Notes under the pieces: model-generated
The model's database searches: none
Told to the model about the DNA's origin: nothing
The model's input: only the letters and a program-made list of their open reading frames with translations
DNA from: Nitrospirota bacterium
GTDB taxonomy: Bacteria; NPL-UPA2; JAADIA01
Assembly: GCA_013151555.1 (NCBI GenBank)
Contig: JAADIA010000040.1
Span: 1 to 27,006, forward strand
Length of the DNA stretch: 27,006 nt
Direction: 5' to 3'
Translations under genes and position numbers: made by a program
Shown here: positions 1,690 through 17,801 of the stretch, piece by piece
Position numbering within the stretch: the first letter of the stretch is position 1
How the letters are laid out: each line of letters begins with the position of its first letter

Positions 1690-2367
1690 ATGCTTCCCTT
1701 TTTAAATAGATTGTTGATACGAATTAAGCCGGAAAAGATTACCGGGTTTATATATGCGACCGTTATTTGTGCGTTTGTTTTCAATTGGATGGGGGTTGCC
1801 CTTGCCGAGGGGATCACGGGAAGTGTCCACGATTTCTCCTCGCAGGGGTGGTCGGCAGGAAAAATTTGCAAGGTCTGTCATACCCCGCACAACGCTGATA
1901 GTACGGTTGAGCCCCTGTGGAATCATGAGTTGAGCAATGCAACCTACACCCTTTACTCGAGTCCCACCCTGGACGGACCTATACACCAGCCGGGACGAGC
2001 TTCAAAGCTGTGTCTATCCTGTCACGATGGTACCGTAGCTATAGACTCTTTTGGTGGCACAACCGGAGGCTCCTTTATTTCCGGCAGTGCCTTGATTGGG
2101 ACGGACCTCTCGGATGACCATCCGGTAGGCGTTGAATGGTCGCATCAAACACTTGAGGGGGGAGGTTCTGCAATTTGTGCCGGATGCCATAATTTGCATG
2201 ATAGTTCTTTTAAGATGCCTCTTCCCTTTTACGAAGAAGGGGGAACCCCCAGGGTGGAATGTGCCACTTGCCATGACCCCCATGATGACGTGCCCTCTAC
2301 AAATGGAGAGTTGCTCCGCAAACCCCTGGCCGGTTCGAAAATTTGCCTTCACTGCCATGATAAGTAA
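1690..2367 (+). CDS. Periplasmic or secreted pentaheme c-type cytochrome
   Basis: An electron-transfer cytochrome of 225 residues with five CXXCH heme sites: CKVCH (60-64), CLSCH (108-112), CAGCH (163-167), CATCH (191-195) and CLHCH (219-223). A signal peptide runs to about residue 39 (ALA before EG). Motifs such as CHTPHN, CLSCHDGTVAIDSFGG, GTDLSDDHP and CHDPHD are those of the doubled-CXXCH cytochrome family and recur in the other cytochromes of the island. I chose ATG 1690 because the sigma-54 promoter at 1662 excludes the in-frame TTG at 1609; the resulting leader would be almost absent and no clear ribosome site is visible, so TTG 1711 or 1714 remains possible. It is the only gene between the two sigma-54 promoters. 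Redox partner unknown. Confidence 0.9.
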   Translation: MLPFLNRLLIRIKPEKITGFIYATVICAFVFNWMGVALAEGITGSVHDFSSQGWSAGKICKVCHTPHNADSTVEPLWNHELSNATYTLYSSPTLDGPIHQPGRASKLCLSCHDGTVAIDSFGGTTGGSFISGSALIGTDLSDDHPVGVEWSHQTLEGGGSAICAGCHNLHDSSFKMPLPFYEEGGTPRVECATCHDPHDDVPSTNGELLRKPLAGSKICLHCHDK

Positions 2368-2405
2368 AAGAATGCTTGCTCTCTGGCAAATAAATAAAGC
2401 GTCTT

Positions 2406-2441
2406 TTAACCTAACCCGTTGTGCTAAAACACGCAGGTTAA
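2406..2441. promoter_or_regulatory. Inverted repeat upstream of the second sigma-54 promoter, possible enhancer site
   Basis: Arms TTAACCT (2406-2412) and AGGTTAA (2435-2441) flank about 22 nt with further weak symmetry (TTGTG/CACG). The centre lies about 120 bp upstream of the -24 element at 2546, a usual distance for an NtrC-type binding site. It could equally be an RNA hairpin in the 3' region of the preceding cytochrome transcript. Confidence 0.3.
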
Positions 2442-2456
2442 GATGTTCTCAAGAGC

Positions 2457-2488
2457 AGCGTTTAGGGATAGACCCCTTCGCTTTTTTT
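2457..2488 (+). terminator. Likely intrinsic terminator after the pentaheme cytochrome gene
   Basis: An imperfect stem pairs AGCG (from 2457) with CGCT (to about 2482) and GGG with CCC, followed at once by a run of seven T. It lies about 90 bp after the stop codon at 2367 and 58 bp before the next sigma-54 promoter, a fitting place for a terminator. The stem contains an internal loop, so efficiency is uncertain. Confidence 0.5.
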
Positions 2489-2545
2489 AATAACCGGTTG
2501 ATGTGAGGGGTAGTTGCAATTATTTTTCTCTGTTAGTATAGAGGC

Positions 2546-2561
2546 TGGCACGAAAATTGCA
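2546..2561 (+). promoter_or_regulatory. Sigma-54 (-24/-12) promoter upstream of the receiver/tetraheme operon
   Basis: TGGCACGAAAATTGCA is again a full match to TGGCACG-N4-TTGCW with GG-N10-GC spacing (GG 2547-2548, GC 2559-2560). The predicted start is near 2572, giving a 33-nt leader before the ATG at 2605. Confidence 0.9.
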
Positions 2562-2604
2562 GATAATAACAAGTATAGCAGTTTTCAATTAAAAGGAATT
2601 ATGC

Positions 2605-2970
2605 ATGCTTAATGAACGAAAGGTATTAGTCGTGGATGATGACAGATTAATTTGCTGGTCCCTGGAAAAGGCCCTGAAAAAGGATGGATGTGAGGTGAGC
2701 GTGGCCCGGACAGGGGAAGAAGCCAGGGAAAGGTTGGAGAGGGACGATTTTGACTTGGTCATCACTGACCTGAAGATGCCGGGGATGGATGGGATGGAGG
2801 TGTTAGAGGAAGTAAGAAGGCATTGTCCCTCTGCCCGGTCCGTTCTCATGACTGCCTTTGGTTCAGGTGAGATATCCCTGCAGGCGGAAAAATACGGGGC
2901 TTCTTATATAGCCAAACCTTTTCAAATCAAAGAATTTGTTAACGATATTCGGAGGTTGTTTAATCCCTGA
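2605..2970 (+). CDS. Stand-alone response regulator receiver protein (CheY/Spo0F-like)
   Basis: A single phosphoacceptor domain of 121 residues with no output domain. The acidic triad DDD follows the first beta strand (LVVDDD, about 9-14). The phospho-Asp is in LVITDLKMPG, the switch Thr in LMTAFG and the conserved Lys in IAKPF. The start is ATG 2605, with an AAAAGG ribosome site about 8 nt upstream. It is the first gene after the second sigma-54 promoter and lies 70 bp before the tetraheme cytochrome, so it is probably co-transcribed with it. Its likely role is phosphorelay or feedback on the kinase that controls the island, inferred from position only. Confidence 0.92.
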   Translation: MLNERKVLVVDDDRLICWSLEKALKKDGCEVSVARTGEEARERLERDDFDLVITDLKMPGMDGMEVLEEVRRHCPSARSVLMTAFGSGEISLQAEKYGASYIAKPFQIKEFVNDIRRLFNP

Positions 2971-3040
2971 AAATTTATAATCCCTTATCTCCTTTTAGCA
3001 AAGGGGGATCAAAGGGAATTTAAAGGAGGTGAAAAAGAAA

Positions 3041-3679
3041 ATGAAGAAGAAGATAGCTATGAGGATAATGTTGGTTGTGGGGATGATAGCTCTAGGAGGA
3101 TGGATGCTAAGTAGCGGCGCCTGGGCAGCAGCAGGAATTACGGGTTCGGCGCATGATTTCTCTGGTGAAAGCTGGACGGGAGAGATCTGTAATGTTTGCC
3201 ACACTCCTCATAATGCGGGATCGGAGCTGGTGCCGTTATGGAATCATGCGACGACAGCTACAGATCCTTTCACCCTTTATACCAGTTCTACTCTGGATGC
3301 TACTCCGGGGCAGCCTGAAGGTGTTTCCAAGGCCTGTTTGAGTTGCCATGATGGAACCGTGGCCATTGATTCCTTTGGAGGTGCTACTGGTTCTACCACG
3401 TTAGCGTCAAATGATGATCATAATCTTGGCACCGATTTGAGCAATGACCATCCCATTTCTTTCACCTATGATGCTGCGTTGGCAACCACGGATGGCGGCT
3501 TGTATAACCCGACCACAGAAACCTCGGGACTGGGCAGTACCATCGAAGCTGATATGCTTGTAAGTGGTAAGGTGGAATGTTCCTCCTGTCACGATGTGCA
3601 TAACAGCAGCGGGCTTGATGATCTCCTGGTTAAAAGTAATGCTACAAGTGCGCTCTGTCTGACCTGCCATGACAAGTAG
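3041..3679 (+). CDS. Tetraheme c-type cytochrome, tandem copy 1
   Basis: A secreted 212-residue cytochrome with four heme sites: CNVCH (50-54), CLSCH (99-103), CSSCH (180-184) and CLTCH (206-210). A signal peptide ends near residue 30 (AWA before AAGITG). Besides the four heme-site histidines there are six others (SAH, TPH, WNH, DDH, NDH, DVH), enough for bis-His ligation of every heme. The GTG at 3029 overlaps the AAGGAGG ribosome site, so ATG 3041 is the start. The next gene (3881) is its tandem duplicate. It is most likely expressed from the sigma-54 promoter at 2546 with the receiver gene. A role as terminal electron carrier or filament subunit is inference. Confidence 0.93.
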   Translation: MKKKIAMRIMLVVGMIALGGWMLSSGAWAAAGITGSAHDFSGESWTGEICNVCHTPHNAGSELVPLWNHATTATDPFTLYTSSTLDATPGQPEGVSKACLSCHDGTVAIDSFGGATGSTTLASNDDHNLGTDLSNDHPISFTYDAALATTDGGLYNPTTETSGLGSTIEADMLVSGKVECSSCHDVHNSSGLDDLLVKSNATSALCLTCHDK

Positions 3680-3731
3680 TCGTTGTATATGGGAAGGGTT
3701 AGCGGTTATTGAGAAAGAAGTCTCGTAAAAG

Positions 3732-3795
3732 AAAAATCCGTCCGCCATGCGCAAGGGTGACCAAGGTCGTCCTTGCTGGCGGAGGGATTTTTTTC
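3732..3795 (+). terminator. Strong hairpin with T-run between the two tetraheme genes
   Basis: Left arm 3732-3746 (AAAAATCCGTCCGCC) pairs with 3778-3792 with one G-G mismatch, and is followed by a long T-rich run broken by single C. The loop region contains a second smaller symmetry. This looks like an intrinsic terminator, possibly leaky, that could set the ratio of tetraheme copy 1 to the genes downstream. Confidence 0.7.
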
Positions 3796-3880
3796 TTTTT
3801 TTTCTTGCCCTAAACCGGAAAGGAGGGTAAAATAACTTAGTGGAAGGATTAAAAGTTTTATAAAAGGGGAGGGAGCAGGA

Positions 3881-4528
3881 ATGAAAGAGAAAATGGCTAT
3901 GAGAGTGATGTTGGCTGCGGTGATGATTAGTTTAGCGGGGATAGTAATAATGAACGGCAATGCCCAGGCGGCCGTAGGCATTACCGGTTCGGCCCACGAT
4001 TTCTCCAGCAAAACTTGGAATCCCAGCGGGGAAATCTGCCGGGTTTGTCATACTCCTCATGATGCCAATACCTCGGTTACGGGAGCGCCCTTATGGAATC
4101 ATGCGGTGACTACTGCTAATTTCACCCTTTACAGCAGTTCTACCCTGAACGCTACTATGGCACAGCCCGGCGGTCCCTCTAAACTTTGTTTAAGCTGCCA
4201 TGACGGAACCGTAGCTATTGATAATTTTGGAGGTCGGACTACCGGAACGAAGTTTATCTGGGGAAATTATTTAATCGGGACCGATCTGAGCAATGACCAT
4301 CCCATTTCTTTTACCTATGACGCTGCGCTGGCAACTGCGGATGACGGCTTGTATAACCCGACCACGCAAACCTCGGGACTGGGCGGGACCATTAATTCTG
4401 ATATGCTTATAGATGATAAGGTGGAATGTTCCTCCTGTCACGATGTGCATAACGGCAGTGGCGTTGCCGATCTCCTGGTTAAGAGTAATGGCGCGAGTGC
4501 GCTCTGTCTGACCTGCCATAACAAGTAG
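3881..4528 (+). CDS. Tetraheme c-type cytochrome, tandem copy 2
   Basis: A 215-residue paralog of the cytochrome at 3041, with heme sites CRVCH (53-57), CLSCH (103-107), CSSCH (183-187) and CLTCH (209-213) and a signal peptide ending near AQA-AVG. The start is ATG 3881 behind GGGGAGGGAGCAGGA. The two copies are nearly identical at the nucleotide level in their last 250 bp (from GTDLSNDHPISFTYD to the stop) but differ more in the first half, including an insertion around KFIWGNYLIG, which suggests duplication with recent gene conversion of the 3' half. It sits downstream of the hairpin at 3732 and 133 bp before the NHL lipoprotein gene. I see no promoter of its own. Confidence 0.93.
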   Translation: MKEKMAMRVMLAAVMISLAGIVIMNGNAQAAVGITGSAHDFSSKTWNPSGEICRVCHTPHDANTSVTGAPLWNHAVTTANFTLYSSSTLNATMAQPGGPSKLCLSCHDGTVAIDNFGGRTTGTKFIWGNYLIGTDLSNDHPISFTYDAALATADDGLYNPTTQTSGLGGTINSDMLIDDKVECSSCHDVHNGSGVADLLVKSNGASALCLTCHNK

Positions 4529-4661
4529 GCGTTACCTATGAGCGTCCCGTGTTTCGGAAGCGGTGGGGCCTCGTAAAATAAAATGTCCCTGAGGTTTTTC
4601 CGGATAGGGCTAAAATTTTTATAACGATGAGTATCGGAATAGATTAAGAGACGATGAGAAA

Positions 4662-5726
4662 ATGAAAATCAGATTATTCCTTTTTATATTTTTTACGCTC
4701 TTCCTCGCCGGTTGCGCTACGGTTCCCCTTCAGCAAAAAGAGGAAGTTAAACCCATCTTCTACCCTCTTCCCCCGGATGTGCCTCGCATCCAGTTTCTCA
4801 CCAGCTTTTCCGGCTCCCAGGATATCAAAGAGAAAAAGAGTCGGTTTGCCTCCTTCATCATCGGCAAGGATGAAGAAGACCTGCCTATCGTTAAGCCTTA
4901 CGGTCTGGCAATCCGGGGAAACAAGATTTATATCTGTGATACCGCGCTGAATACGATAATTATTATAGATATGGAAAAGAAGTCTTTCCGTTATTTTGCG
5001 CCTGATGGCAAGGGTCGTCTGGAGGAGCCCATAAACATTTCCGTAGATAAGGACGGCACGAAATATGTTTCCGATGTCCTGCGGGGAGTCGTGGTTATCT
5101 TTAATGCGGCCAATAAGTTTTCCGGTGTCCTGGCTAAAGAAGGAGGGATGAAACCTACCGATGTAGCTATCGGCAAAGAGCGGATTTATGTCACCGATCT
5201 TAAGAGCAATAAGGTCAGGGTCTGGGATAAGGCAAAGAAAAAATTTTTATTCGCTATTCCGGTGGAGAATACGAAGGAAGCTAAATTATATTCTCCGGTT
5301 AACATAGCTTTGGATAAAGAAGGTAACCTTTATGTCTCCGATATGGGAGCGTTCCGGGTGCAGAAATATGACCGGGAAGGGAAGTTTATCCGCAGTTTTG
5401 GTTCCTTAGGAGATGCCCCCGGCCAGTTTGCCCGCCCTAAGGGAATAGCCCTGGATAAGGAAGACCGCCTGTATGTCGTGGATGCTGCTGCTCAGCTTGT
5501 CCAGATATTTGACCCGGAAGGGAAACTCCTTCTTTTCTTCGGAGAGTCCCAGGAAGAAAAATTTATCCTCAACTTACCTGCTAAAATCAGGATAAATTAT
5601 AGTCTCCTCCCTTATTTCCAGCATTTTGCCGCTCCTTCTTTTGAGTTGCAATATTTGATTTTTGTTACCAGTCAGTATGGAAGTCACAAGGTCTCCGTAT
5701 TTGGTTTCGGACGACAGAGGCAATGA
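4662..5726 (+). CDS. NHL-repeat beta-propeller lipoprotein A
   Basis: A predicted lipoprotein of 354 residues; the lipobox LAGC places the lipidated Cys at about residue 18. After a linker come about six NHL-type repeats of the pattern KPYGLAI...IYICDT...IIIID (about 78-345), best preserved at YVSDMGAFRVQKYDREGKFIRSFG (about 225-248). Such repeats form a beta-propeller used for protein or ligand binding, without a recognised active site. The stop codon overlaps the start of the pentaheme lipoprotein (ATGA), so the two are translationally coupled. A paralog (8661) also precedes a cytochrome gene. A structural or docking role in a surface cytochrome complex is plausible. The C-terminal 50 residues do not fit the repeat well. 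Confidence 0.9.
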   Translation: MKIRLFLFIFFTLFLAGCATVPLQQKEEVKPIFYPLPPDVPRIQFLTSFSGSQDIKEKKSRFASFIIGKDEEDLPIVKPYGLAIRGNKIYICDTALNTIIIIDMEKKSFRYFAPDGKGRLEEPINISVDKDGTKYVSDVLRGVVVIFNAANKFSGVLAKEGGMKPTDVAIGKERIYVTDLKSNKVRVWDKAKKKFLFAIPVENTKEAKLYSPVNIALDKEGNLYVSDMGAFRVQKYDREGKFIRSFGSLGDAPGQFARPKGIALDKEDRLYVVDAAAQLVQIFDPEGKLLLFFGESQEEKFILNLPAKIRINYSLLPYFQHFAAPSFELQYLIFVTSQYGSHKVSVFGFGRQRQ

Positions 5727-6265
5727 AGAGATGGCTTATCTATATTGGGTTAGTTGTCCTCCTGGGGGGATGCAGCCCGGCCGCCAGGTATAAGATTGCC
5801 CGGGTTATCTTTGATGGGGTGCCATCTCCTTCTTCGGGTAAGATGGAGGGAAAGGCAAAGTCTCCTACCGGGAAAAATCAGGAAAAACCGGGAGTTCCCT
5901 CCCCGAAACCTTCTTCTCCTATATTTTATACTCATTATCCCTATGCTGAAGGCAGTTGCGATAACTGCCATAACTCTCAAGCTTCCAATCAACTCTTGGC
6001 AAAGGGAAATAAACTTTGTTTAACCTGCCACAATGATGTTTTAACCGGAGCTAAGGTTGTGCATCCGCCGGCAGAGGCAGATTGCCTTATCTGCCATGAG
6101 CCTCATCGGTCAAAGAACGCTAACCTTTTAAAGCAACCGGTAGAGGCTCTCTGTTTCAGTTGCCATGATAAGAAGGATATGGAAGAGAAGCACGGGCAGA
6201 TAATTCTCTGCACTAACTGTCATAATCCTCATCAGTCGAAAGAAGAATATCTGCTTAAAGAATAG
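5723..6265 (+). CDS. Pentaheme c-type cytochrome lipoprotein
   Basis: A 180-residue lipoprotein cytochrome. The lipobox LGGC puts the lipid anchor at Cys17. A Pro/Ser/Lys-rich linker (about 33-67) precedes five heme sites: CDNCH (79-83), CLTCH (99-103), CLICH (121-125), CFSCH (144-148) and CTNCH (163-167), several in the CHEPH or CHNPH doubled-CXXCH form. The start overlaps the preceding NHL gene by 4 nt. The flexible linker would let the heme domain reach away from the membrane, as expected for a cytochrome that bridges the periplasm or docks to an outer-membrane pore. The beta-barrel gene follows after 218 bp. Confidence 0.93.
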   Translation: MKRWLIYIGLVVLLGGCSPAARYKIARVIFDGVPSPSSGKMEGKAKSPTGKNQEKPGVPSPKPSSPIFYTHYPYAEGSCDNCHNSQASNQLLAKGNKLCLTCHNDVLTGAKVVHPPAEADCLICHEPHRSKNANLLKQPVEALCFSCHDKKDMEEKHGQIILCTNCHNPHQSKEEYLLKE

Positions 6266-6410
6266 AATAGGGCGTGGAGAAAGAAACAAGACACGGATTT
6301 ACATATGAGATTATAACTACTAATTAACCCGAATCGTTTAAAAAGGTACAAAGTAAAGAGGCCCAAAGGAAAGATAAAAGATAGCATTTGCAGTTTTTTA
6401 GAGCTTTCAA

Positions 6411-6437
6411 CTCTGTGCCTTAGTGCCTCTGTGCCTG
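6411..6437. repeat. Short direct-repeat tract CTGTGCCT/TAGTGCCT
   Basis: Three GTGCCT-type units (CTGTGCCT at 6413 and 6429, TAGTGCCT between them) lie in the gap before the beta-barrel gene. It is simple-sequence intergenic DNA of the same general kind as the other dispersed tracts here. No function is visible. Confidence 0.5.
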
Positions 6438-6483
6438 TTACTTGTTCATCAGTGTCTGAATTGTGAGTTGATGAAAACCGTAG

Positions 6484-8424
6484 ATGAAGATTATAGCCCT
6501 TATTTGTGGTATAATATTTTTGTTCTCTCCTTATGTTTATGCCCAGGAGAGTGCTCCTTTTACCATAAAGAGTACCCGGCGTTTGTTGGTAATTAATACG
6601 GAAAACCAGCGGACAGAACGTTACTTGCCCTCTAGCGATAGCGAAGAGGTGCGCAAGAGAAGTTTTTACAAGGAGAATTTGGAACTGAGTTTTGAAGGTT
6701 CTGTTTATCATCCCAATTTGATGAATTTTAATCTCGATGCTCAGTTTGGTCTCTCCCAGCAGAAGGAGGAGTCAGGCATCGGGAAGTCGTTTGATACCGC
6801 CTCTTTGGGCAACCTGCGCTGGGTTACCAACTGGCTGGCAAAGAAACCTTATGCTTTCAGCCTCTTTGTGGACAAGCGCAACTTTACCCGGAACTATGAG
6901 TTCTTTGAAAGGGTAAAGACCGAGAGAACTGCCGTCGGCGGCCGCGGCCGCTGGGAGAACAAGATAGTTCCTATCTATTATTCCCTGGAAAAGAGCGATA
7001 CCAGGGAAAGAAAAACTACCCGGCCTTCTGAGGAGCGCGAACTTATCTTCAATTTCGGGGGGAATAAAACTTCGGCAAAGGGAAACAGTGATACCCGGTT
7101 GGATTATACCTATAGTAAATCCGAGCGTTCCACCCCGGGCATTTATGAAGAGAAAGGGAGAACTCATAACCTCCGTCTGTCCAATAACCTTATTTTTGGG
7201 AAGAAAGAAGAGAAAAGGCTCTCTTCCTATATTTATTATCTGACTCTGGGTGGTACCCAGGATATGGATAGTATTAATCTCTCTGAGGGCCTGGAACTTA
7301 AACATTCGCCTAACCTGTCCAGCAGGTACTCTTACGATCTTAACAGGGTAAGTGACAGAGGACTTAAAACTACTACCCAGCGAGGACGTTTTCAAATCCG
7401 GCATCAGCTTTATGAAAGTTTAACTACTACTTTCAATATGCACGGTTATCTAACCAGGGCCACTGACTACGATGAAGACAGCTTTGGCCCGGGGATAAAT
7501 TTGCTTTACCGTAAGAATATAAAGGTGGGTTTTCTGACTTTAAACTATAACTTAACAAATGATTTTAAAGAACGCCGGGCTTTTTCGCAGACTATCCTGG
7601 TTTTTGACGAAAGTCAGACTTTAACGGATGGAGTAGTTACTTTGCTTAATAACCCTGATGTTGATACCGGTTCCATTGAGGTTACCGATAGTGGCGGAAC
7701 GACTCGCTATGTTCTGAACAGCGACTATACCGTCTCCACGGTTGGCAATCGTATCCAGCTTAGCCGGATAGCCACGGGGAGTATAGCCAACGGCAGCACT
7801 GTTCTGGTAGATTATACCACTTCCACCAACCCTTCCTTTGACTATGTTTCCTTAAGGCAAGGAGCCGGCATCAGAACGGACTTCTTGGAAGGGAAGCTCG
7901 GCTTATACTATCGCCTTATGAGTCAGCGTTATCCTTATTCCGAGAAAGTGGAAAACATGGTGTTGGAAACTACTAAGGGTAAGATAGTGGGAGCGTCCTT
8001 TAATTTCCGCCCTTTTTACGGGAGCGTGGAGCATGAGAAGTATGAATCTTCCATTTCCCCGTACGAGGCTTATCGGGTCCGTCAGAGTTTCTTCCTGACC
8101 TTAGCCCGTCGTTCCACTTTGAGTTTTCAGAGCTCGCAGAGTTTCACCCGGTTCCAAAATACGGGGGAAAAACAGAGGTTTTATGATTTTATGACCCGAT
8201 ATCGTACTCCTCTTAGCTCCTTCACGTTTTTTAATATGGAAGGGGGCTACCGCCGGCAAAAGGGTGCTAACATAAATTTAACCCTTCAGACTATAAGGAC
8301 CTATATAGAATTCCAGCGGGGGTTTCTCTCTTTTAAGATAGGATATGAGTTTGAAGATAAGGACTCCTGGGGAGATTTGCGCCGGGACCATTATATTTAT
8401 ACGGAATGGAGAAGAGAATTTTAA
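6484..8424 (+). CDS. Large outer-membrane beta-barrel protein, probable porin of the cytochrome conduit
   Basis: A 646-residue protein with a signal peptide (cleavage near VYA-QES, about residue 20). The rest is rich in alternating hydrophobic/polar strands with frequent Tyr, Phe and Arg and no long hydrophobic helix. It ends in EWRREF; a C-terminal Phe is the usual assembly signal of outer-membrane barrels. A loop-like insert around 390-440 (GSIEVTDSGGTTRYVLNSDY followed by a VLVDYTTS segment) resembles an all-beta extracellular domain. It contains no CXXCH. Its place between two cytochrome/NHL pairs suggests the pore of a porin-cytochrome complex (compare MtrB, PioB, OmbB), although the N-terminal CXXC of MtrB is absent. 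Start ATG 6484 has only a weak ribosome site. Barrel identity is strong; the conduit role is inferred. Confidence 0.85.
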   Translation: MKIIALICGIIFLFSPYVYAQESAPFTIKSTRRLLVINTENQRTERYLPSSDSEEVRKRSFYKENLELSFEGSVYHPNLMNFNLDAQFGLSQQKEESGIGKSFDTASLGNLRWVTNWLAKKPYAFSLFVDKRNFTRNYEFFERVKTERTAVGGRGRWENKIVPIYYSLEKSDTRERKTTRPSEERELIFNFGGNKTSAKGNSDTRLDYTYSKSERSTPGIYEEKGRTHNLRLSNNLIFGKKEEKRLSSYIYYLTLGGTQDMDSINLSEGLELKHSPNLSSRYSYDLNRVSDRGLKTTTQRGRFQIRHQLYESLTTTFNMHGYLTRATDYDEDSFGPGINLLYRKNIKVGFLTLNYNLTNDFKERRAFSQTILVFDESQTLTDGVVTLLNNPDVDTGSIEVTDSGGTTRYVLNSDYTVSTVGNRIQLSRIATGSIANGSTVLVDYTTSTNPSFDYVSLRQGAGIRTDFLEGKLGLYYRLMSQRYPYSEKVENMVLETTKGKIVGASFNFRPFYGSVEHEKYESSISPYEAYRVRQSFFLTLARRSTLSFQSSQSFTRFQNTGEKQRFYDFMTRYRTPLSSFTFFNMEGGYRRQKGANINLTLQTIRTYIEFQRGFLSFKIGYEFEDKDSWGDLRRDHYIYTEWRREF

Positions 8425-8460
8425 ACTCCAGAGCGCCCAGAGGAATACAAAAAATTAATA

Positions 8461-8626
8461 GGACGCAGATTTAAAAAGCAAAAAACATAAACCACGAGAT
8501 TAGCCCAAGACTCTCACAGATAATAATTAAAATTTAACTTTTCTTTAATTCTATAAAAGTCAATCTTGTAATAATTTGTGGTTATAAAGTTTTTTAAATC
8601 CTAAAAATCTGCGTTTATCTGCGTCC
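8461..8626. repeat. Inverted-repeat element with GGACGCAGAT arms
   Basis: The left arm GGACGCAGATTT (8461-8472) is mirrored by AAATCTGCG (about 8605-8613) and a second ATCTGCGTCC ending at 8626. A nested pair ATAAACCAC / GTGGTTAT lies inside. The whole gap before the second NHL gene could fold into a long hairpin. It is MITE-like in shape but encodes nothing, and no target-site duplication is evident. Confidence 0.65.
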
Positions 8627-8660
8627 CAAAAAGAATTTATGGTTTAATTCAGGGTTTATT

Positions 8661-9713
8661 ATGAATATTTTCCTTAAAGGCAAGAGGTTCTTGATTTTAT
8701 TTTCTTTGTTTCTCTTCTCTGTCATAGGAGTCTCTTCCTCATTCCCTGAAGATAATAAAAAACAGGTGAAAGCTCCTTTCTGGCCTACTCCTCCGGCAGA
8801 AACCCGGATCCGTTTTGTAAGCAGTTTTTCCTCTCCGGAGGATATCGGGGTACCCGGAGGGGGTTTTTTTAAACGTGTCCGGGACCTGTTGATTGGACGG
8901 CGAAGCAGAAAGATGGTCCGGCCCTATGGAATAGCAATAGGACCGGGGGGAAACCGGATCTATGTATCCGACCCGGGCCTGGGAGTAGTTCATATATTTG
9001 ACCGGAGGAAACATAGCTATTCTATGCTGAGTGCCGGGGGGGGGGACAAATTTGTTTCTCCCATCGGGGTGGCTCTTGACGATAAAGGACGTTTGTTTGT
9101 TTCCGATACAAAACTCCGGAAGGTCTTTGTCTTTAACAACAAATTAAAATATCTTTTCTCTCTGGGTGACCGGGAAAACTTACAGCGGCCTACAGGCATA
9201 GTGTTTACTCAGGGCAAGCTCTATGTCGTAGATACTTCCGGGCATCAGGTGGTCGTTTATGATGGAGAAGGCAATTATCTCTTCCGCTTCGGTCGGCGGG
9301 GAAGCGGGGATGGGACTTTTAATTTTCCTACGGGTATAACCGCTTCGGCGGCCGGTCGTTTATATATTAATGACAGCATGAACTTTCGCATTCAGGTTTT
9401 TAACCTTGAGGGAAAATTTTTATCAATTATCGGGGGCCCGGGGGATAGCAGCGGCTATTTCAGCCGACCCAAGGGAGTTGCCCTGGACAGCGATGATAAT
9501 TTATATGTTGTGGATGCTTTGTTCGATACCGTTCAGATTTTTAACCGGGAGGGACGGTTTCTTTTAAACTTTGGGGAAGCGGGGGAAAAAGAGGGAGAGT
9601 TCTGGCTTCCGGCCGGAATCGCTATAGATAAGCAAGACAGAATCTATGTGGCCGATTCCTATAACCGCCGCATTCAGATATTCCAGTATCTTAGTCGAGG
9701 GTCTATTCCCTAA
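8661..9713 (+). CDS. NHL-repeat beta-propeller protein B, exported
   Basis: A 350-residue protein with an N-terminal signal peptide (hydrophobic about 8-26) but no clear lipobox. A linker with the PPAETRIRFVSSFSSPEDI segment is shared with NHL protein A. Six NHL repeats fill about 90-345, for example IYVSDPGLGVVHIFDRR, LYVVDTSGHQVVVYDGEG and IYVADSYNRRIQIF at the end. The last repeats are more regular than in protein A. The gene follows the beta-barrel and precedes the dodecaheme cytochrome, repeating the NHL-then-cytochrome order seen at 4662-6265. Likely a periplasmic or cell-surface scaffold; no enzyme motif is seen. Confidence 0.9.
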   Translation: MNIFLKGKRFLILFSLFLFSVIGVSSSFPEDNKKQVKAPFWPTPPAETRIRFVSSFSSPEDIGVPGGGFFKRVRDLLIGRRSRKMVRPYGIAIGPGGNRIYVSDPGLGVVHIFDRRKHSYSMLSAGGGDKFVSPIGVALDDKGRLFVSDTKLRKVFVFNNKLKYLFSLGDRENLQRPTGIVFTQGKLYVVDTSGHQVVVYDGEGNYLFRFGRRGSGDGTFNFPTGITASAAGRLYINDSMNFRIQVFNLEGKFLSIIGGPGDSSGYFSRPKGVALDSDDNLYVVDALFDTVQIFNREGRFLLNFGEAGEKEGEFWLPAGIAIDKQDRIYVADSYNRRIQIFQYLSRGSIP

Positions 9714-9807
9714 AAAATAAGAAAAACTTGACAAGATAAACAGGATAGACATGATATTTAATTATATGGGTATTGGGTAATTATGAAGACAGGGAGATAA
9801 TGGGGAG

Positions 9808-11532
9808 ATGTTAAATAAAAATTTTATCCGGTTTATCATGTTAATCCTGTCTATATTTTTTGGATTATTGGCTTTATTCCTGCCGGGATTTGCTCTCATT
9901 GCTTCTGCTTCCAGCGTGGTTAATTCCAAACACAACCTTTCGGTCAGTGGACCCGGCACAGTTAAAGCTATCTCAGAGACAGGTGTGTGTATTTTCTGCC
10001 ATGCGCCGCACAATGCTACTGCAGAGGCCCCTCTCTGGAACCGTTATTCCTCCGGGGCGACCTATACTCCTTATTCGAGTTCAACTGCCCAGGCTACCAT
10101 GGGCCAGCCTACCGGCGCCTCTAAACTATGCCTGAGCTGTCATGACGGTACTATCGCTCTGGGTCTGGTGAGAAGCCGGGATACGGAGATATCTTTTAAT
10201 GGTAGTTCTACCTTGCCGCCCGGAGTCTCTAATTTGGGCACGGATTTATCCGATGACCATCCCATATCTTTTCCTTTTAATAATCCATTATATACTCAGG
10301 ACGGCCAGTTGAATAACCCGGCGCTGCTTACCGGAGCGGTAAAGTTGGATAGTAACGAAAATCTTCAGTGTACTTCCTGTCATAACCCTCATGATAATCA
10401 GTACGGTAAATTCCTGGTAATGGATAACCGGGCTTCGGCAATGTGCACTGCCTGCCATAATCCCACCGGCTGGACCGGTACTGTTCACCGGACCTCTACG
10501 GCAACCTGGAATGGTCAGCTTCCCGACCCCTGGCCGCATACGGCCTACACTACCGTTTTCGATAATGCCTGCGAAAACTGCCATCTCCCGCACAGCGCCG
10601 GCGGGCCGGCAAGGTTAATGAATAATGCTATCTCGGAGGAAAACTGTTTTCCTTGTCATGACGGTAATGTAGCCCAGAAAGATATCAAGAGCGAATTCAA
10701 TAAGATAAGTGTCCATCCTATAGCTGACACGGACGTCCACGATCCCACGGAGGATTTGATTAATCCTCCTCGCCATGTGGAATGCGTTGATTGCCACGAT
10801 TCCCATGCTGCTAATGCGGTTACTGCCTCTGCGCCCTATGCTTCCGGAGCCCTGGTTGATGTTAAAGGGGTAAATAGTTCCGGCAGTGAAGTTAACGAGA
10901 TAACTTTTCAATATGAACTCTGTTTCCGTTGCCATGCCGATAGCCTGAACAAGGGTGCTCCCCTGGTAAACCGACAGTTTGTGGAGACTAATACCCGTCT
11001 GGAGACAAGTTTATCCAATCAATCATATCATCCTATAGTGGGAGTTGGTAAAAACCCTAATGTCCCCAGTCTTATCAGTCCTTATACTACCTCCAGTATC
11101 ATCTATTGTACCGACTGCCATAATAACGATCAGGGACCCAATGCGGGCGGCGCCGGTCCTAATGGCCCGCACGGTTCAATTTACGCACCTATATTGGAAC
11201 GACAGTTGCTTCTTACCGATTACAGTCCCGAGAGTCCGGCGAATTATGCTCTCTGTTATAAATGCCATTCCCGGACAAACATCCTTAACAATAAGAGTTT
11301 TCCTTACCATAAGCTTCACATTGTAACGGTGCGGGCCTCTTGCACAACCTGTCATGACCCGCACGGAGTGGCCGGCGTAACTCACTTAATTAACTTTAAT
11401 ACCGATTATGTGACAAAAAATAGTCGCGGCCAATTGAAATTTGTGGATAATGGCACTTACCACGGGACCTGTTACCTGAGTTGCCATGGGCGAAACCATG
11501 GGGGAATGGGAATGGGGAAATACAGCTATTAA
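9808..11532 (+). CDS. Large secreted multiheme c-type cytochrome (11 CXXCH plus one CX3CH)
   Basis: A 574-residue cytochrome with a signal peptide ending near ASA-SSVVNSKHN (about 33-36). Eleven canonical heme sites are, in order: CIFCH, CLSCH, CTSCH, CTACH, CENCH, CFPCH, CVDCH, CFRCH, CTDCH, CYKCH and CTTCH. A twelfth, CYLSCH (555-560), has three residues between the cysteines and sits in a Gly/Met-rich tail with one further His. The first third (KHNLSVSGPG, CHAPHN, CLSCHDGTIAL, GTDLSDDHPISF) matches the small cytochromes of the island, so the protein appears to be an extended family member. Start ATG 9808 follows AGGGAG and GGGGAG. It ends 8 nt before the heptaheme gene. Probably the main extracellular or outer-membrane electron carrier of the cluster. 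Confidence 0.93.
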   Translation: MLNKNFIRFIMLILSIFFGLLALFLPGFALIASASSVVNSKHNLSVSGPGTVKAISETGVCIFCHAPHNATAEAPLWNRYSSGATYTPYSSSTAQATMGQPTGASKLCLSCHDGTIALGLVRSRDTEISFNGSSTLPPGVSNLGTDLSDDHPISFPFNNPLYTQDGQLNNPALLTGAVKLDSNENLQCTSCHNPHDNQYGKFLVMDNRASAMCTACHNPTGWTGTVHRTSTATWNGQLPDPWPHTAYTTVFDNACENCHLPHSAGGPARLMNNAISEENCFPCHDGNVAQKDIKSEFNKISVHPIADTDVHDPTEDLINPPRHVECVDCHDSHAANAVTASAPYASGALVDVKGVNSSGSEVNEITFQYELCFRCHADSLNKGAPLVNRQFVETNTRLETSLSNQSYHPIVGVGKNPNVPSLISPYTTSSIIYCTDCHNNDQGPNAGGAGPNGPHGSIYAPILERQLLLTDYSPESPANYALCYKCHSRTNILNNKSFPYHKLHIVTVRASCTTCHDPHGVAGVTHLINFNTDYVTKNSRGQLKFVDNGTYHGTCYLSCHGRNHGGMGMGKYSY

Positions 11533-11540
11533 CTTTGGAT

Positions 11541-12359
11541 ATGGTCATGAAAAAAATTCATATTTCCCATAGTATAATAATAGTTGCTCTTACTTTATCT
11601 TTTATCCTGGGAGGGATTTATTTAGTGAGGGCGGCGTTAAATTCAAAGATGCATAATTTCGAAGGTAAATGTCAGATATGTCATCGGGGAACGCCTGCTC
11701 CGAACGCCGAACGTAAAGATATTGTCCTCGTGGATGAAAGCGAGAGGCTCTGTATTTCTTGCCATACCGTTGATAAGAAGATGTCTCATCCCATCCGGGT
11801 AGTTCCCAGTATGCCTGTTCCCGGGGAGATGCCTCTGGATAAGCAGAATAGGTTAACCTGTATAACCTGTCACGATGTGCACAAGGAAGATAAGGCATCC
11901 TTCCGGAAGGACCAATTAGCAGGACTTCTGCGGGGGCATGTTCAGGGAAGAGCCTTTTGTTTTATCTGTCACTCCCGGGATATATCTAAATCGTCCCGGA
12001 GGCATCAGACTTCTGTTTCCTATGCCCACGGGGAGGGTAGATTAATAGAAAAAAAAGATGGTTCTCTTCTGGATTCATTCTCCCGGGAATGTCTTAGCTG
12101 TCACGACGGAACGATTTCCAAAATGCCTTCGGTTTCCGTGCGAGAAGGAATCTGGAAACATGGGGTCAGTCTCAGCCACCCTATAGGCGTGCGCTATCCC
12201 CGGGACGGGGATTTCCGGGCATATCTTCCCAAGAAGATCCGGCTCTTTGACGGCAAGGTGGGGTGTCTTTCCTGCCATGACCCTTATGCTAAAGAACGCA
12301 ACCTGTTGGTGATGAGTAACAGGAGAAGCAGGTTGTGCCTTTCCTGTCATAATAAATGA
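11541..12359 (+). CDS. Membrane-anchored heptaheme c-type cytochrome
   Basis: A 272-residue cytochrome with one N-terminal hydrophobic segment (about 9-31, IIIVALTLSFILGGIYLV) that may be an uncleaved anchor or a signal peptide. Seven heme sites follow: CQICH, CISCH, CITCH, CFICH, CLSCH, CLSCH and CLSCH. The frame is open further upstream but overlaps the preceding gene, so ATG 11541 (or 11547) just after its stop is the natural start. It is tightly linked to the large cytochrome (8-nt gap). If the anchor is retained, it would face the periplasm and could pass electrons from the inner membrane to the conduit; that direction is inferred. Confidence 0.9.
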   Translation: MVMKKIHISHSIIIVALTLSFILGGIYLVRAALNSKMHNFEGKCQICHRGTPAPNAERKDIVLVDESERLCISCHTVDKKMSHPIRVVPSMPVPGEMPLDKQNRLTCITCHDVHKEDKASFRKDQLAGLLRGHVQGRAFCFICHSRDISKSSRRHQTSVSYAHGEGRLIEKKDGSLLDSFSRECLSCHDGTISKMPSVSVREGIWKHGVSLSHPIGVRYPRDGDFRAYLPKKIRLFDGKVGCLSCHDPYAKERNLLVMSNRRSRLCLSCHNK

Positions 12360-12415
12360 GCTCCGGGTTTTTATAAATTATAAAAGATGATCATGAAAGC
12401 ACGAAGGAGCGAGAA

Positions 12416-12443
12416 CCTGTCTGCGTGCCACGCACAGGCAGGC
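12416..12443. repeat. Hairpin repeat CTGCGTG/CACGCACAG
   Basis: CCTGTCTGCGTGCC followed by ACGCACAGGCAGG forms a near-perfect hairpin 57 bp after the heptaheme gene. It is a sequence cousin of the CCTGCCTGC palindromes at 1359 and 12474. It lacks a T-run, so it is better read as a dispersed palindrome than as a terminator. Confidence 0.6.
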
Positions 12444-12468
12444 ACGAAGAGAATCCTATGAATTTTTT

Positions 12469-12572
12469 GACAGCCTGCCTGCCGCAGGCAGGGATGAACG
12501 GGATTAACAAGATTTCTTAAATTTTTCTATACTTATTAATCTTAATCCTGTTTTTATCCTGTATATCCTGTC
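12469..12572. repeat. Dispersed inverted-repeat element, ACAGGAT family
   Basis: Ends GACAG (12469) and CTGTC (to 12572) enclose a GC near-palindrome (12474-12492, exact reverse complement of 1359-1377) and the pair GGATTAACAAGATT / AATCTTAATCC plus two ATCCTG units. The architecture is the same as at 22225-22326, which supports a family of related elements. Confidence 0.7.
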
Positions 12573-12645
12573 AGAATAATTTTCAACAGGGTAAATCAGG
12601 GTCTAATTTAGTCTTCTAACAAACACTTACGAGAGGAGGTTTCTG

Positions 12646-13236
12646 ATGTCAAACAAACAGAGATACAGAAGGCGGAAATATTTTATAAAAAACAGCACCC
12701 AGTCAAGGTTAATCTTAAAGACGTATATAGTGCTGGCGGTAGTACTGGTTCTGGTAGGCACATTATTCTATATTGCTGCCAACAAGAATCTGGAGGGAGA
12801 TTATTTTAAAGCTCATCTCGTCCTTAAAACTACTATGGATAATCTTCTTCCCATTCTGATTGCAGTGAATGGTATCGCCCTTATCCTGGCAGCATTTCTT
12901 ATCGTTCGTTTTACTCACAGAATTGCCGGTCCCGTATACCGGCTCAGGAAAATGGCTCCCCGAATTGCCGAAGGCGATCTCTCCCGGGAACTTAAATTCA
13001 GACAATCCGATGAGGCAAAAGAGATTGCTGAGGCTGTTAATCAAATAATAGCGGGACTGCGTCAAAAGATAATTGTATTAAAACAGGACCTGGGTAACGT
13101 TTCCTCAATGTGTGAAGAAATATTCTCCATAGGTCAAAATGAACCTTTGCCGAGCCATCTTCTTCAGGTTGTTAAGGAATTGCATATTACTCTCAAATCC
13201 GTCAATGATAATCTGGAAAAATTCAAAGTAAATTAG
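12646..13236 (+). CDS. HAMP-domain integral membrane protein
   Basis: A 196-residue protein with a basic N-terminus, two transmembrane helices (about 24-44 and 67-89) and a HAMP linker after the second (RIAGPVYRLRKMAPRIAEGDLS, about 92-113, read as two joined parts), followed by a helical coiled-coil tail. It has no kinase, methyl-accepting, cyclase or other output domain. The periplasmic loop is only about 20 residues. The start is ATG 12646 behind GAGAGGAGG. The gene closes the cytochrome island; it might be a membrane sensor subunit or a scaffold that couples to a separate kinase. Function not known. Confidence 0.85.
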   Translation: MSNKQRYRRRKYFIKNSTQSRLILKTYIVLAVVLVLVGTLFYIAANKNLEGDYFKAHLVLKTTMDNLLPILIAVNGIALILAAFLIVRFTHRIAGPVYRLRKMAPRIAEGDLSRELKFRQSDEAKEIAEAVNQIIAGLRQKIIVLKQDLGNVSSMCEEIFSIGQNEPLPSHLLQVVKELHITLKSVNDNLEKFKVN

Positions 13237-13422
13237 TTTTTCTTATTGACAAAGCGTATTGTAAAGGATAAGCTGTTATGATAGTTTGACTTGCTATATT
13301 CATATCTTGTTGACCGGGTTTAGAGAAACGGTTTTTTTTAATGGTTCAACCTGTGCCGTCTATCACAGGGATTGATTGAAAGAGGAAAAAAGCCAGCGGG
13401 TTTTATTTCCGGGAGGAGAGAA

Positions 13423-14436
13423 ATGTATTTCCCGAAATATCGGTTGCGCCGGTTGCGCGGAAACAAGAATTTGCAGCGGATGGTGAGGGAGACAAAACTT
13501 TTTGTAGATGATCTGGTAATGCCCTTTTTCGTCCGGGAAGGAAAGAAAGTTAAAAAAATTATTTCTTCTATGCCGGGGAACTATCAGCTCTCCGTGGACA
13601 ATCTGGTCCGGGAAGTGGAAGAGGTAAAGGAAGCCGATATTCCCGCTGTTCTCCTCTTCGGTATTCCCGACGTCAAGGATGAAGAAGCTTCTTCCGCTTA
13701 TGCCGGGGAAGGAATTGTTCAACGAGCTGTAAGAGCGATCAAAGACAGAGTCCCCGGGATGATTGTTATTACCGACGTCTGCCTGTGCGAGTACATGAGC
13801 CATGGGCATTGCGGAATTATAAAAGGCCGGCCGTTGCCGAAAACCGAAAGCCGAAAACCGAAAGCTGAAATCGACAATGAGGCTACCCGGCATCTTCTGG
13901 CCAGGACAGCCTTGTCCCATGTCCGGGCGGGAGCGGATGTGGTCGCTCCTTCGGCAATGATGGATGGACAAGTATCCGCTATCCGGGGTATTCTTGACGA
14001 GAATGGTTACCAGGATATTCCTATCATGTCCTATTCTGCTAAATATGCTTCCTCCTTTTACGGCCCTTTCCGGGAGGCTGCCGAATCGCCCCCGGCTTTT
14101 GGCGACCGTCGTTCCTATCAGATGGATATGGCCAATTCTCATGAAGCTCTGCGGGAGGTGGCCCTGGATATTGAGGAAGGAGCGGATATCGTCATGGTCA
14201 AGCCGGCTCTGGGATATATGGATATCATCTATCGGGTCAAAGAGAAATTTGGCTATCCCGTAGCTGCCTACAGTGTCAGCGGTGAGTTTGCTATGGTTAA
14301 AGCTGCCGTAGAGAAAGGATGGTTGGAAGAGAAAAAGACAGTTTTGGAGATACTGACCGGTTTGAAGAGAGCCGGAGCGGACATAATTATTACCTACTGG
14401 GCCAAGGATGTAGCTCGATGGTTGAAAGAAAGTTAA
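13423..14436 (+). CDS. hemB: Porphobilinogen synthase (delta-aminolevulinic acid dehydratase)
   Basis: Condenses two 5-aminolevulinate to porphobilinogen in tetrapyrrole synthesis, in the cytoplasm. The 337-residue protein shows the zinc-type metal site CLCEY...HGHC (C120, C122, C130), both active-site lysines ([15 protein letters not shown]207; [12 protein letters not shown]260) and [10 protein letters not shown]. The start is ATG 13423 behind GGGAGGAG; an in-frame TTG at 13372 has no such site. Residues 139-150 are encoded by a tandem 14-bp repeat and replace the short surface loop usually found after HGHCG. A weak promoter candidate (TTGACA at 13246, N17, TAAGCT) lies upstream. Together with ahbD and ccm downstream it forms a heme-supply block for the cytochromes. 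Confidence 0.96.
13837..13871 (+). repeat. Simple tandem repeat inside hemB
   Basis: The 14-mer CCGAAAACCGAAAG occurs twice head to tail (13837-13850, 13851-13864) and is followed by a degenerate part copy. It stays in frame and encodes [12 protein letters not shown]. The composition looks like intergenic simple-sequence tracts rather than hemB coding sequence, so it is probably an inserted repeat tolerated in a surface loop. Confidence 0.75.
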
Positions 14437-14443
14437 GTTAATA

Positions 14444-14594
14444 AGTGCTCCAGTTAACAAACAAATAAAAGTGCTCCAGTGCTCCAGTTAAAGAATACAA
14501 AATCTAAACTGCATAGATTCGAAAATCAATTTTAAATTTCCAATCTTCAATTTACAATTACGAGCGTAGCGAGTTAACAAGTGCTCCAGTGCTT
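14444..14594. repeat. AGTGCTCCAGT repeat cluster between hemB and the ahbD-like gene
   Basis: AGTGCTCCAG units occur at 14444, 14470 (as a double unit reading AGTGCTCCAGTGCTCCAGTT) and 14580, with GTTAACAA next to the first and last. AT-rich AATTT/CAATTT tracts lie between them. It fills most of the 205-bp gap. Too short and irregular for CRISPR; no coding capacity. Confidence 0.65.
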
Positions 14595-14641
14595 GAGTAG
14601 GGGCTCGATTTATCGAATGTTAGTCTATAGTTAGGAAATAT

Positions 14642-15684
14642 ATGCAAAACGAATTAAGGATGATTGCCTGGGAAGTGACCCGGAACTGCAACCTTAATTG
14701 TATCCATTGCCGGGCAGCAGCGGGGAGAGGTCCTTATGAGAACGAGTTATCTCTCGGGGAATGTTTTCGTCTTCTTGATAGTATCGCTTCTTTCAGCCAT
14801 CCGGTAATTATCCTCACGGGGGGAGAGCCGTTGTTGCGTCCGGATATTTTTGAGATTGCTCAATACGCTGCCGATAAAGGCCTGAGAACGGTTATGGTAA
14901 CGGGACCTTGTTGACGGAAGAAATCGCCCGGAAAATATTGGAGGTGGGGATCAGGAGAATCAGTATAAGTATTGATGGATCCGGTGCTCTTAGCCATGAT
15001 TCCTTCCGGAAAGTCCCGGGGGCTTTTCAGGGAGCTTTGTCCGGTATTGAGGCAGCTAAGAAAGTGGGGTTGGAGTTCCAGGTAAATACTACGGTTACCA
15101 GAAGAAACTTGTCTGAGCTTCCGGCCCTTCTTGATTTATCTACCCAACTGGGTGCGGCCGCTCATCATATTTTTCTCCTTGTTCCTACCGGGCGGGGGGA
15201 GGAACTGAAAGCGGAAGAAATTTCTCCTCAAGCATATGAGGAGACCCTTACCTGGCTCAGCCGGCAAGAAAGTAGAATACCTATAAAAGTTACCTGTGCT
15301 CCTCATTATTACCGTATCCTGCGTCAGAAAGGGGTGCCGGAGAGGAAAGAAGCTGCCGGGGAAAGTGGCCAACCTGTCCATCCTATGTCTGTCAGTGGGG
15401 GCTGTTTAGGGGGAAAAAGTTTTTGTTTCATCTCTCATACCGGACAGCTTCAGCCCTGTGGATACCTGGAACTAAATTGTGGGAATGTAAGGAAAGAGGG
15501 ATTTCAAGAAGCCTGGAAACAATCAGAGGTATTTAATTATTTGCGGGATGTTGGTAACCTTAAGGGTAAATGCGGTCGTTGTGAATTTAAGAAGGTTTGT
15601 AGTGGTTGTCGAGCCCGGGCTTATGTAAGGACAGGGGATTACCTGGAGGAGGAACCTTATTGTGTTTATGAACCGAAACAATGA
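14642..15684 (+). pseudogene. ahbD: AhbD-like radical SAM heme synthase, interrupted by a frameshift
   Basis: Closest to AhbD, the radical SAM enzyme that makes heme from iron-coproporphyrin III in the siroheme-dependent pathway. The first part (14642-14914) has AWEVTRNC with the CX3CX2C cluster motif (CNLNCIHC) and ILTGGEPLLRPDIF. It then hits a stop after VMVTGPC. The second part resumes in another frame with NGTLLTEEIARKIL (from 14899) and holds the C-terminal auxiliary cluster cysteines (GGCLGG, QPCGY, CGRCEFKKVCSGC). Inserting four bases (a second AACG at 14899-14902) restores VTNGTLL, the usual motif. So either a tandem AACG lost one copy or the read is wrong. Next to hemB and ccm, a working copy would be expected. 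NirJ/AhbC-type homologs are the main alternative. Confidence 0.85.
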
Positions 15685-15730
15685 ATTTAGCACCCTCCGG
15701 GTGAATAGACACAGACCTAAATAAATACTA

Positions 15731-15834: not shown

Positions 15835-15885
15835 CTCATCCGGTTACTTTGGTGCCTTATCTCTAAACGGGAGCATTTGTATTAA

Positions 15886-16569: not shown

Positions 16570-16570
16570 A

Positions 16571-17248: not shown

Positions 17249-17252
17249 TAAA

Positions 17253-17797: not shown

Positions 17798-17801
17798 TAA
17801 A

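Follow-up and report, generated by a model that had tools for sequence, protein, structure and literature searches.

Several described gene clusters associate outer-membrane porins with multiheme cytochromes. In the Mtr complex, the cytochrome MtrA is lodged inside the Mtr barrel (PDB 6R2Q). In the nanowire cytochrome OmcE, a His residue of the adjacent subunit serves as a heme ligand (PMC9473688). In PMC10734462 (after Eddie et al. 2022), the Uet cluster (UetA-J) of Ca. Tenderia electrophaga and Gallionella is described as comprising an undecaheme and a tetraheme together with a barrel and two NHL proteins. The Oet cassette (OetABI) of ANME-partner bacteria gathers a porin, a lipoprotein cytochrome and putative nanowire cytochromes (PMC10553843), and clusters from Verrucomicrobia consist of a novel porin adjoining multiheme genes, with an 8-heme periplasmic cytochrome (PMC5615132).

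The locus presented here occupies positions 1690–13236 of a window of 27,006 nucleotides, the whole stretch of DNA that was analysed, from a Nitrospirota bacterium. This island probably encodes a trans-outer-membrane conduit and an OmcE-type nanowire in one operon, forming one extracellular electron transfer machine, a reading built on homologies, domain architecture, a lipoprotein signal, a predicted barrel fold, a conserved operon and sigma-54 promoter sequences. With Oet it shares a porin, a lipoprotein cytochrome and candidate wires in one cassette, but the Oet wires are, by description, of the OmcS/OmcX type. With the Verrucomicrobia clusters it shares a novel porin beside multiheme genes, but NHL proteins and an undecaheme go unmentioned in the text of PMC5615132.

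Compared by description, the likeness to Uet extends to an undecaheme with 11–12 heme motifs (11 CXXCH and one CX3CH in the island), a secreted tetraheme, a barrel and two NHL proteins, so that the undescribed conduit type considered possible in the preliminary description finds no support. It is nevertheless rather doubtful that the island is a strict member of Uet, i.e., the known Tenderiales/Gallionella undecaheme cluster serving cathode or iron oxidation. Despite the same kinds of genes, both the PPIase (UetB), looked for by a domain scan of the window proteins, and the periplasmic trihemes (UetDEG), for which the window holds no triheme ORF, are absent from the island, which possesses instead an MtrA-like pentaheme lipoprotein, a heptaheme and a HAMP protein. 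As far as the description of Uet goes, the island is best read as a variant with an MtrA-like lipoprotein, overlapping with Uet in content and yet set apart from it. Strict membership would concern the name and the direction of the electrons, and is compatible with a mechanism combining conduit and wire.

Layout and regulation of the island

The six multiheme cytochromes with 37 heme sites, the two NHL propellers, the single barrel and the lone receiver previously counted from the sequence are all borne out by the ORFs, the Pfam domains and, for the ~28 strands of the barrel, an AlphaFold model. Every gene of the island lies on the + strand, and the features of the window are as follows:

17–1207, +, NtrC-type sigma-54 activator (AAA+, Fis HTH, receiver cut by the window start; PF00158 E 3e-70, PF02954, PF00072)
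1662–1677, +, exact sigma-54 promoter, TGGCAC-N5-TTGCA (0 mismatches)
1690–2367, +, secreted pentaheme cytochrome, OmcE homolog with one extra heme (5 CXXCH; phmmer to OmcE 7TFS, E 1.2e-24)
2546–2561, +, second exact sigma-54 promoter (sequence motif), 5' of the receiver gene
2605–2970, +, stand-alone response-regulator receiver (PF00072 E 3e-26)
3029–3679, +, tetraheme 1, secreted, OmcE family, candidate nanowire subunit (4 CXXCH)
3881–4528, +, tetraheme 2, secreted, OmcE family, candidate nanowire subunit (4 CXXCH; 7TFS E 7.8e-23, 9YUQ E 2e-24)
4662–5726, +, NHL_A, NHL beta-propeller lipoprotein, lipobox LAGC (PF01436 E 3e-16)
5723–6265, +, MtrA-like pentaheme lipoprotein, half-length (5 CXXCH; profile match to MtrA 6R2Q_A)
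6484–8424, +, outer-membrane beta-barrel, ~28 strands, 646 aa, C-terminal Phe (AlphaFold pLDDT 92.6; conserved family, alignment A2)
8661–9713, +, NHL_B, secreted NHL beta-propeller (PF01436 E 8e-34)
9808–11532, +, undecaheme/dodecaheme cytochrome (12-heme protein), OmcE domain (aa ~41–218, 4 hemes) and C-terminal 8-heme domain (11 CXXCH and 1 CX3CH; A3 profile to 7TFS)
11547–12359, +, heptaheme cytochrome; its single N-terminal hydrophobic segment may be an inner-membrane anchor or a signal peptide (7 CXXCH, within ORF 11481–12359)
12646–13236, +, two-TM HAMP protein devoid of a kinase domain (PF00672 E 4e-6)
13372–23139, +, supporting block: hemB (ALAD), a radical SAM/SPASM gene in two frames, CcmB, CcmC, CcmE, CcmF, CcmH and an ABC ATPase (Pfam matches)

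The 37 heme motifs comprise 36 CXXCH and one CX3CH; upon shuffling of the six cytochromes a mean of 0.16 CXXCH was obtained (maximum 2), and according to the domain scan each of the six contains doubled-CXXCH cytochrome domains. Which start codon the first pentaheme uses is uncertain, the exact sigma-54 promoter ending 12 bases 5' of the ATG at 1690. Among 57 homologous loci, 10 have sigma-54-like sites 5' of the tetraheme, as compared to 0.8 expected, and the NtrC-type activator is likely the regulator of the island. As judged from its Pfam matches, the block downstream of the island is devoted to heme supply and cytochrome c maturation, its ABC ATPase being likely CcmA. The heptaheme and the HAMP-like protein are neighbours in other loci too, the latter being the partner of the heptaheme in many of them.

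OmcE-family cytochromes and the 12-heme protein

Homology to OmcE, the nanowire cytochrome of Geobacter, is found in three cytochromes of the island and, within the large undecaheme, in the N-terminal domain. Tetraheme 1 aligns with both OmcE and tetraheme 2 at every heme motif and distal His, and among 58 tetrahemes the residues H39, H60, H140 and H190 and the four motif His are conserved in 95–100%, which corresponds to the four CXXCH and four distal His of the OmcE family. Homology to OmcE is not by itself a proof of polymerisation. The N-terminal domain of the undecaheme matches 7TFS with E 2.1e-30 in a sequence search and E 4.5e-46 as an A3 profile, and the AF2 model superimposes on the same structure with Z 12.0 and an rmsd of 2.7 Å. 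All 12 motif His of the undecaheme are each more than 95% conserved, and the twelfth motif, CX3CH (C555-x3-C559-H560), is found in 81 of 81 homologs.

A His located N-terminal to heme 1 is conserved in 95% of the tetrahemes and 99% of the undecahemes, and we infer from this short motif that it could serve as the inter-subunit ligand in this family. The likewise short context of H227 in the undecaheme, S-x-H-x-x-S-x-x-x-W-N, resembles this N-terminal motif, as if the C-terminal domain replaced the next filament subunit. Such a twelfth heme motif and an integral OmcE domain are what would be expected of a filament adaptor. Tentatively, the 12-heme protein might then be a dedicated adaptor, whose OmcE domain would act as the terminal subunit while its C-terminal domain would mimic the next one through H227 and dock on the barrel, the operon building wire, socket and conduit together.

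The multi-chain entry 9YUQ and OmcE of Geobacter sulfurreducens (7TFS) resemble the island proteins in tetraheme sequence family, in the N-terminal His and in the fold modelled for the N-domain of the undecaheme (Z 12), but the island versions are duplicated and varied, with a 5-heme form and a fused 12-heme form. The Desulfobacterota genomes carrying the closest OmcE are devoid of the island-type barrel. Their Geobacter-type loci (L152–L154; OmcE 51–60% identical) similarly combine an MtrA-like cytochrome, NHL, OmcE and a large protein with a terminal Phe, but differ by their own decaheme and octaheme, a barrel candidate of 748–806 aa and the lack of an undecaheme; this candidate gives a weak, C-terminal profile match to the island barrel, with 36% probability.

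The barrel and its MtrA-like lipoprotein

Compared to solved structures, the profile of the pentaheme lipoprotein (A4) best matches MtrA (6R2Q_A, E 9e-27), the next match being at 4e-9. Its Cys17 and all five heme motifs are conserved, as is an RxxxLxFFFDGVPxP motif located C-terminal to the lipobox Cys. A lipobox also occurs in 48 of 63 members of the NHL_A family. The barrel model consists of a large beta-barrel of ~28 membrane strands, as counted from the DSSP string, with an inserted domain at about aa 370–450, and nearly every member of the family ends with a C-terminal aromatic residue. The barrel profile found no match in the PDB, nor the barrel any in Pfam. Membership of the MtrB/PioB sequence family is ruled out, TIGR03509 matching one of 62 members and only with E 0.011 in the kind of profile comparison advocated in the preliminary description, and in agreement with the mismatch to MtrABC-type systems noted beforehand. 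At the level of the fold, MtrB (6R2Q_B) aligns with Z 18.4 over 433 residues (span 29–646), a score tied with those of TonB-receptor barrels; no other solved barrel listed has as many residues aligned, and the alignment runs from the first strand to the end.

The island resembles MtrCAB (PDB 6R2Q) by an MtrA-like cytochrome adjoining a large barrel of MtrB-like fold size. In contrast, its half-length lipoprotein contains 5 hemes instead of the 10 of MtrA, its barrel falls outside the MtrB/PioB profile, and no MtrC/OmcA member occurs, the OmcA/MtrC surface cytochrome profile (TIGR03507) yielding at most 26 bits versus a cut-off of 209.

Conserved gene order, proposed mechanism and alternatives

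The synteny suggested as a check in the preliminary description was found, the matches including loci from no fewer than 12 named phyla, with carriers such as Aromatoleum and Desulforhopalus. The core order, tetraheme, NHL lipoprotein, pentaheme lipoprotein, barrel, NHL and undecaheme, is exact in 26 loci, lacks the pentaheme lipoprotein in 13 others and has its halves swapped in 8 more; all six core genes occur in 36 of the 80 loci examined, and NHL_B in 73. The core genes almost abut (median gaps of −4 to +20 bp). Viral contigs and plasmids searched for relatives of the island yielded none. With the barrel as sole query, 17 of 297 Desulfobacterota genomes were positive. In each of these 17, NHL and cytochrome genes adjoin the barrel, and each belongs to the 31 genomes possessing an OmcE-like protein (hypergeometric p 1e-19). 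Both an unrelated transporter barrel and a gene order unique to this contig, named earlier as refuting outcomes, are thereby ruled out; of the porin-cytochrome conduit first put forward, the dedication of the barrel to cytochromes is supported, and its lipoprotein neighbour proves to be MtrA-like.

In the conduit and wire reading, a heptaheme at or near the inner membrane would exchange electrons, in one direction or the other, with the MtrA-like pentaheme lipoprotein, which would be housed inside the ~28-strand barrel and span the outer membrane. On the outer side, the 12-heme protein would dock on the barrel via its C-terminal 8-heme domain and offer its N-terminal OmcE domain as a landing site for the secreted tetrahemes. 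These would polymerise into an OmcE-type filament in which, as in the OmcE structure, a His of one subunit would ligate a heme of the next. The two NHL propellers may serve at the outer membrane, either as a scaffold or in assembly.

It is unlikely that the island serves secretion instead of conduction, with the barrel and NHL propellers exporting and assembling an OmcE-type filament and the electrons using another outer-membrane route. Pseudomonadota loci keep the barrel, both NHL proteins and the undecaheme but miss the pentaheme lipoprotein, so that the barrel may pair with another cytochrome or have another purpose; the genomes with the closest OmcE (L152–L154) also possess NHL protein(s) and the different C-terminal-Phe protein, and a Foldseek search with the barrel matched, among others, chaperone-usher pilus channels. 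However, the lipoprotein beside the barrel, where present, is specifically MtrA-like, the two genes lying so close that they nearly overlap (median gap −1), and MtrA-like decahemes adjoin other OmcE loci too. That a mis-binned contig brought the island from another organism, e.g., a verrucomicrobium, is very improbable: of the 9 genomes of the phylum, the other 8 all lack barrel, undecaheme and CcmF, and the undecaheme branches as sister to a clade of Verrucomicrobiota, but the single-copy MnmG of the same contig is 71% identical to that of an order-mate, and the tetranucleotide profile matches the other contigs of the genome, which carry multiheme cytochromes too.

The operon bears on how cytochrome nanowires attach to the outer-membrane electron path. 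In the conduit and wire reading, it provides a concrete and widely conserved candidate socket, the 12-heme protein with its OmcE domain, beside a barrel and its MtrA-like candidate plug, and their occurrence in one operon makes wire attachment testable by deletion and structure. If the adaptor role were true, one operon conserved in at least 12 phyla would make wire, socket and trans-membrane conduit, and this spread renders the attachment of wires to cells testable. The sequences suggest that OmcE-type wires may exist in Verrucomicrobiota, Planctomycetota, Bacteroidota, Calditrichota, Nitrospirota and Pseudomonadota; this homology to OmcE nanowires and the wide spread of the gene order go beyond the preliminary description.

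Gene content of the island and its flanks

The six multiheme cytochromes encoded in the window, all on the + strand, together contain 36 CXXCH motifs and one CX3CH motif, versus a mean of 0.16 CXXCH expected by chance from shuffled versions of the same six proteins. Two NHL proteins, a lone receiver and a 646-aa protein with a terminal Phe occur on the same strand, and the inventory of the preliminary description (six cytochromes with 37 heme sites, two NHL propellers and one barrel) is thus borne out. The components are distributed as follows:

1690-2367, +, first pentaheme cytochrome
2605-2970, +, receiver
3029-3679, +, tetraheme cytochrome 1
3881-4528, +, tetraheme cytochrome 2
4662-5726, +, lipoprotein NHL propeller
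5723-6265, +, pentaheme lipoprotein
6484-8424, +, barrel (646 aa)
8661-9713, +, secreted NHL propeller
9808-11532, +, large cytochrome, called the undecaheme in the literature
11547-13236, segment with the heptaheme cytochrome (+)

Genes for hemB, a radical SAM/SPASM protein, CcmB, C, E, F and H, and an ABC ATPase, probably CcmA, occur 3' of the island, so that heme supply and cytochrome c maturation adjoin the cytochromes. The radical SAM/SPASM gene beside hemB (14642-15684) is read in two overlapping frames of 90 and 258 aa, owing to a frameshift, a sequencing error or a real split. Upstream of the island, an NtrC-type sigma-54 activator is encoded, and two exact sigma-54 promoter sequences are located 5' of the first cytochrome and of the receiver, respectively. 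Of 57 homologous loci, 10 have a sigma-54-like site 5' of the tetraheme gene (0.8 expected).

In the window as well as in six homologous loci (L026, L031, L040, L045, L063 and L066), the heptaheme is accompanied by one or two small HAMP-like proteins with two transmembrane segments and devoid of any kinase. This pairing, which adjoins the core operon in several phyla and sometimes neighbours an NtrC-type regulator, is possibly a redox-sensing membrane module.

Conservation of the operon

With an alignment centred on the large cytochrome, a search of a single genome from each species yielded over 570 relatives. Locus analysis relied on the 80 best of them (undecaheme matched over most of its length, 44-62% identity), which belong to the Verrucomicrobiota, Kiritimatiellota, Planctomycetota, Nitrospirota, Pseudomonadota, Desulfobacterota, Bacteroidota, Ignavibacteriota, Chlorobiota, Calditrichota, Myxococcota, Sumerlaeota, KSB1 and Hydrogenedentes. 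Many of these loci lie on cut contigs; 73 hold the secreted NHL propeller, 71 the barrel, 64 the lipoprotein NHL propeller, 57 the tetraheme and 43 the pentaheme lipoprotein. The conserved synteny looked for around the barrel was found, the exact order tetraheme, lipoprotein NHL, pentaheme lipoprotein, barrel, secreted NHL, undecaheme occurring in 26 of the best 80 loci, the same order devoid of the pentaheme lipoprotein in 13, and a two-block arrangement in 8; since these loci are the top-scoring ones, the fractions apply to close relatives of the window's undecaheme rather than to bacteria at large. The core genes almost abut in homologous loci. A cytochrome with 13 hemes and a length of about 430-480 aa, of which the window contains no representative, stands alongside the core operon in L102-L107, L109, L023, L029, L049, L083 and other loci.

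The association also holds when searched from the barrel alone. A profile built from 62 barrels detected the protein in 17 of 297 Desulfobacterota genomes, all 17 with NHL and cytochrome neighbours; the undecaheme is not near the barrel in two of them, where contig ends interrupt both loci. All 17 carriers fall within the 31 Desulfobacterota genomes encoding an OmcE-like protein (p 1e-19), a co-occurrence that partly repeats the synteny because the OmcE search also detects the undecaheme's own OmcE domain. The barrel is rare in the order of Aromatoleum (2/300 genomes, one being the query genome).

Barrel, cytochromes and a proposed conduit

The gene set is most economically read as a porin-cytochrome conduit to which an OmcE-type nanowire is joined. 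An MtrA-like lipoprotein inside an MtrB-sized barrel would form the conduit, which in turn would connect to the nanowire. The barrel belongs to no Pfam family and its sequence has no match in the PDB. Its AlphaFold model (pLDDT 92.6) consists of about 28 membrane strands and, among the listed solved barrels, aligns the most residues with MtrB, from first to last strand, TonB receptors being equal in Z. An inserted domain (aa 377-448, window 7612-7827) weakly resembles the phage tail tube profile NF052337 (E 8e-7, below its cut-off), as seen in 30/62 family members.

The pentaheme lipoprotein family retains the lipobox Cys and an unusual stretch, RxxxLxFFFDGVPxP, in addition to five heme motifs. 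Among solved cytochromes, its profile best matches chain A of 6R2Q (E 9e-27; next best 4e-9), which we take to be MtrA as 6R2Q is the Mtr complex, the chain's listed molecule name being different.

Three sequences of the window match the Geobacter cytochrome OmcE (7TFS) at E 1e-22 to 1e-30, namely tetraheme 2, the first pentaheme and an N-terminal stretch of 200 residues in the large cytochrome; with a profile of the large cytochrome, the match reaches E 4.5e-46. In the AlphaFold model of the large cytochrome (pLDDT 86), residues 41-218 superpose on OmcE (Z 12.0, rmsd 2.7 Å), and the C-terminal part gives weak structural matches only (OmcS, Z 4.5). Its CX3CH motif is kept in 81/81 sequences, which makes the protein probably a dodecaheme. 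In OmcE, a histidine from the adjacent subunit serves as heme ligand (PMC9473688). A candidate N-terminal histidine is conserved in the tetrahemes as well as in the large cytochrome, and the latter possesses an invariant H227 directly after the OmcE domain. The context of H227 (S-x-H-x-x-S-x-x-x-W-N) is similar to the N-terminal end of filament subunits, which suggests that the C-terminal domain may stand in for the next subunit, the protein ending or starting the filament.

Origin and related systems

None of the barrel, undecaheme and CcmF was found in the eight other genomes of this small phylum. The contig very probably belongs in its genome bin: its MnmG is single-copy and 71% identical to that of an order-mate, and its base composition agrees with that of other contigs from the genome. 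In the undecaheme tree, the window's sequence is sister to a Verrucomicrobiota clade (support 100/98). Transfer into the lineage and loss in the smaller relatives fit these results equally well. Genes for NapC-like multiheme cytochromes, adjacent to Hdr-like ones, occur on some of the genome's other contigs. At L139 and L141 (contigs C72 and C20), a NapC-type N-terminus is fused to about nine further heme motifs, with Hdr-like neighbours in L139, a candidate link to the quinone pool.

As listed for Gallionellaceae, the undecaheme cluster Uet comprises genes of the same kinds as the window for the undecaheme, tetraheme, barrel and two NHL proteins, plus a PPIase and trihemes (PMC10734462); the window has neither of the last two. 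The genomes with the closest OmcE relatives are devoid of this barrel. There, the neighbours of the OmcE gene are a decaheme resembling MtrA, an octaheme, one or more NHL proteins and a protein of 748-806 aa with a C-terminal Phe, which differs from the window's barrel. Owing to this comparable content, the recipe of wire subunit, NHL protein, barrel and MtrA-like cytochrome apparently comes in two or more versions. A third arrangement (L159-L162), devoid of this barrel, combines a heptaheme, the secreted NHL propeller and an 11-heme protein of greater length (734-769 aa), with a BamB-like PQQ propeller in the version of L161.
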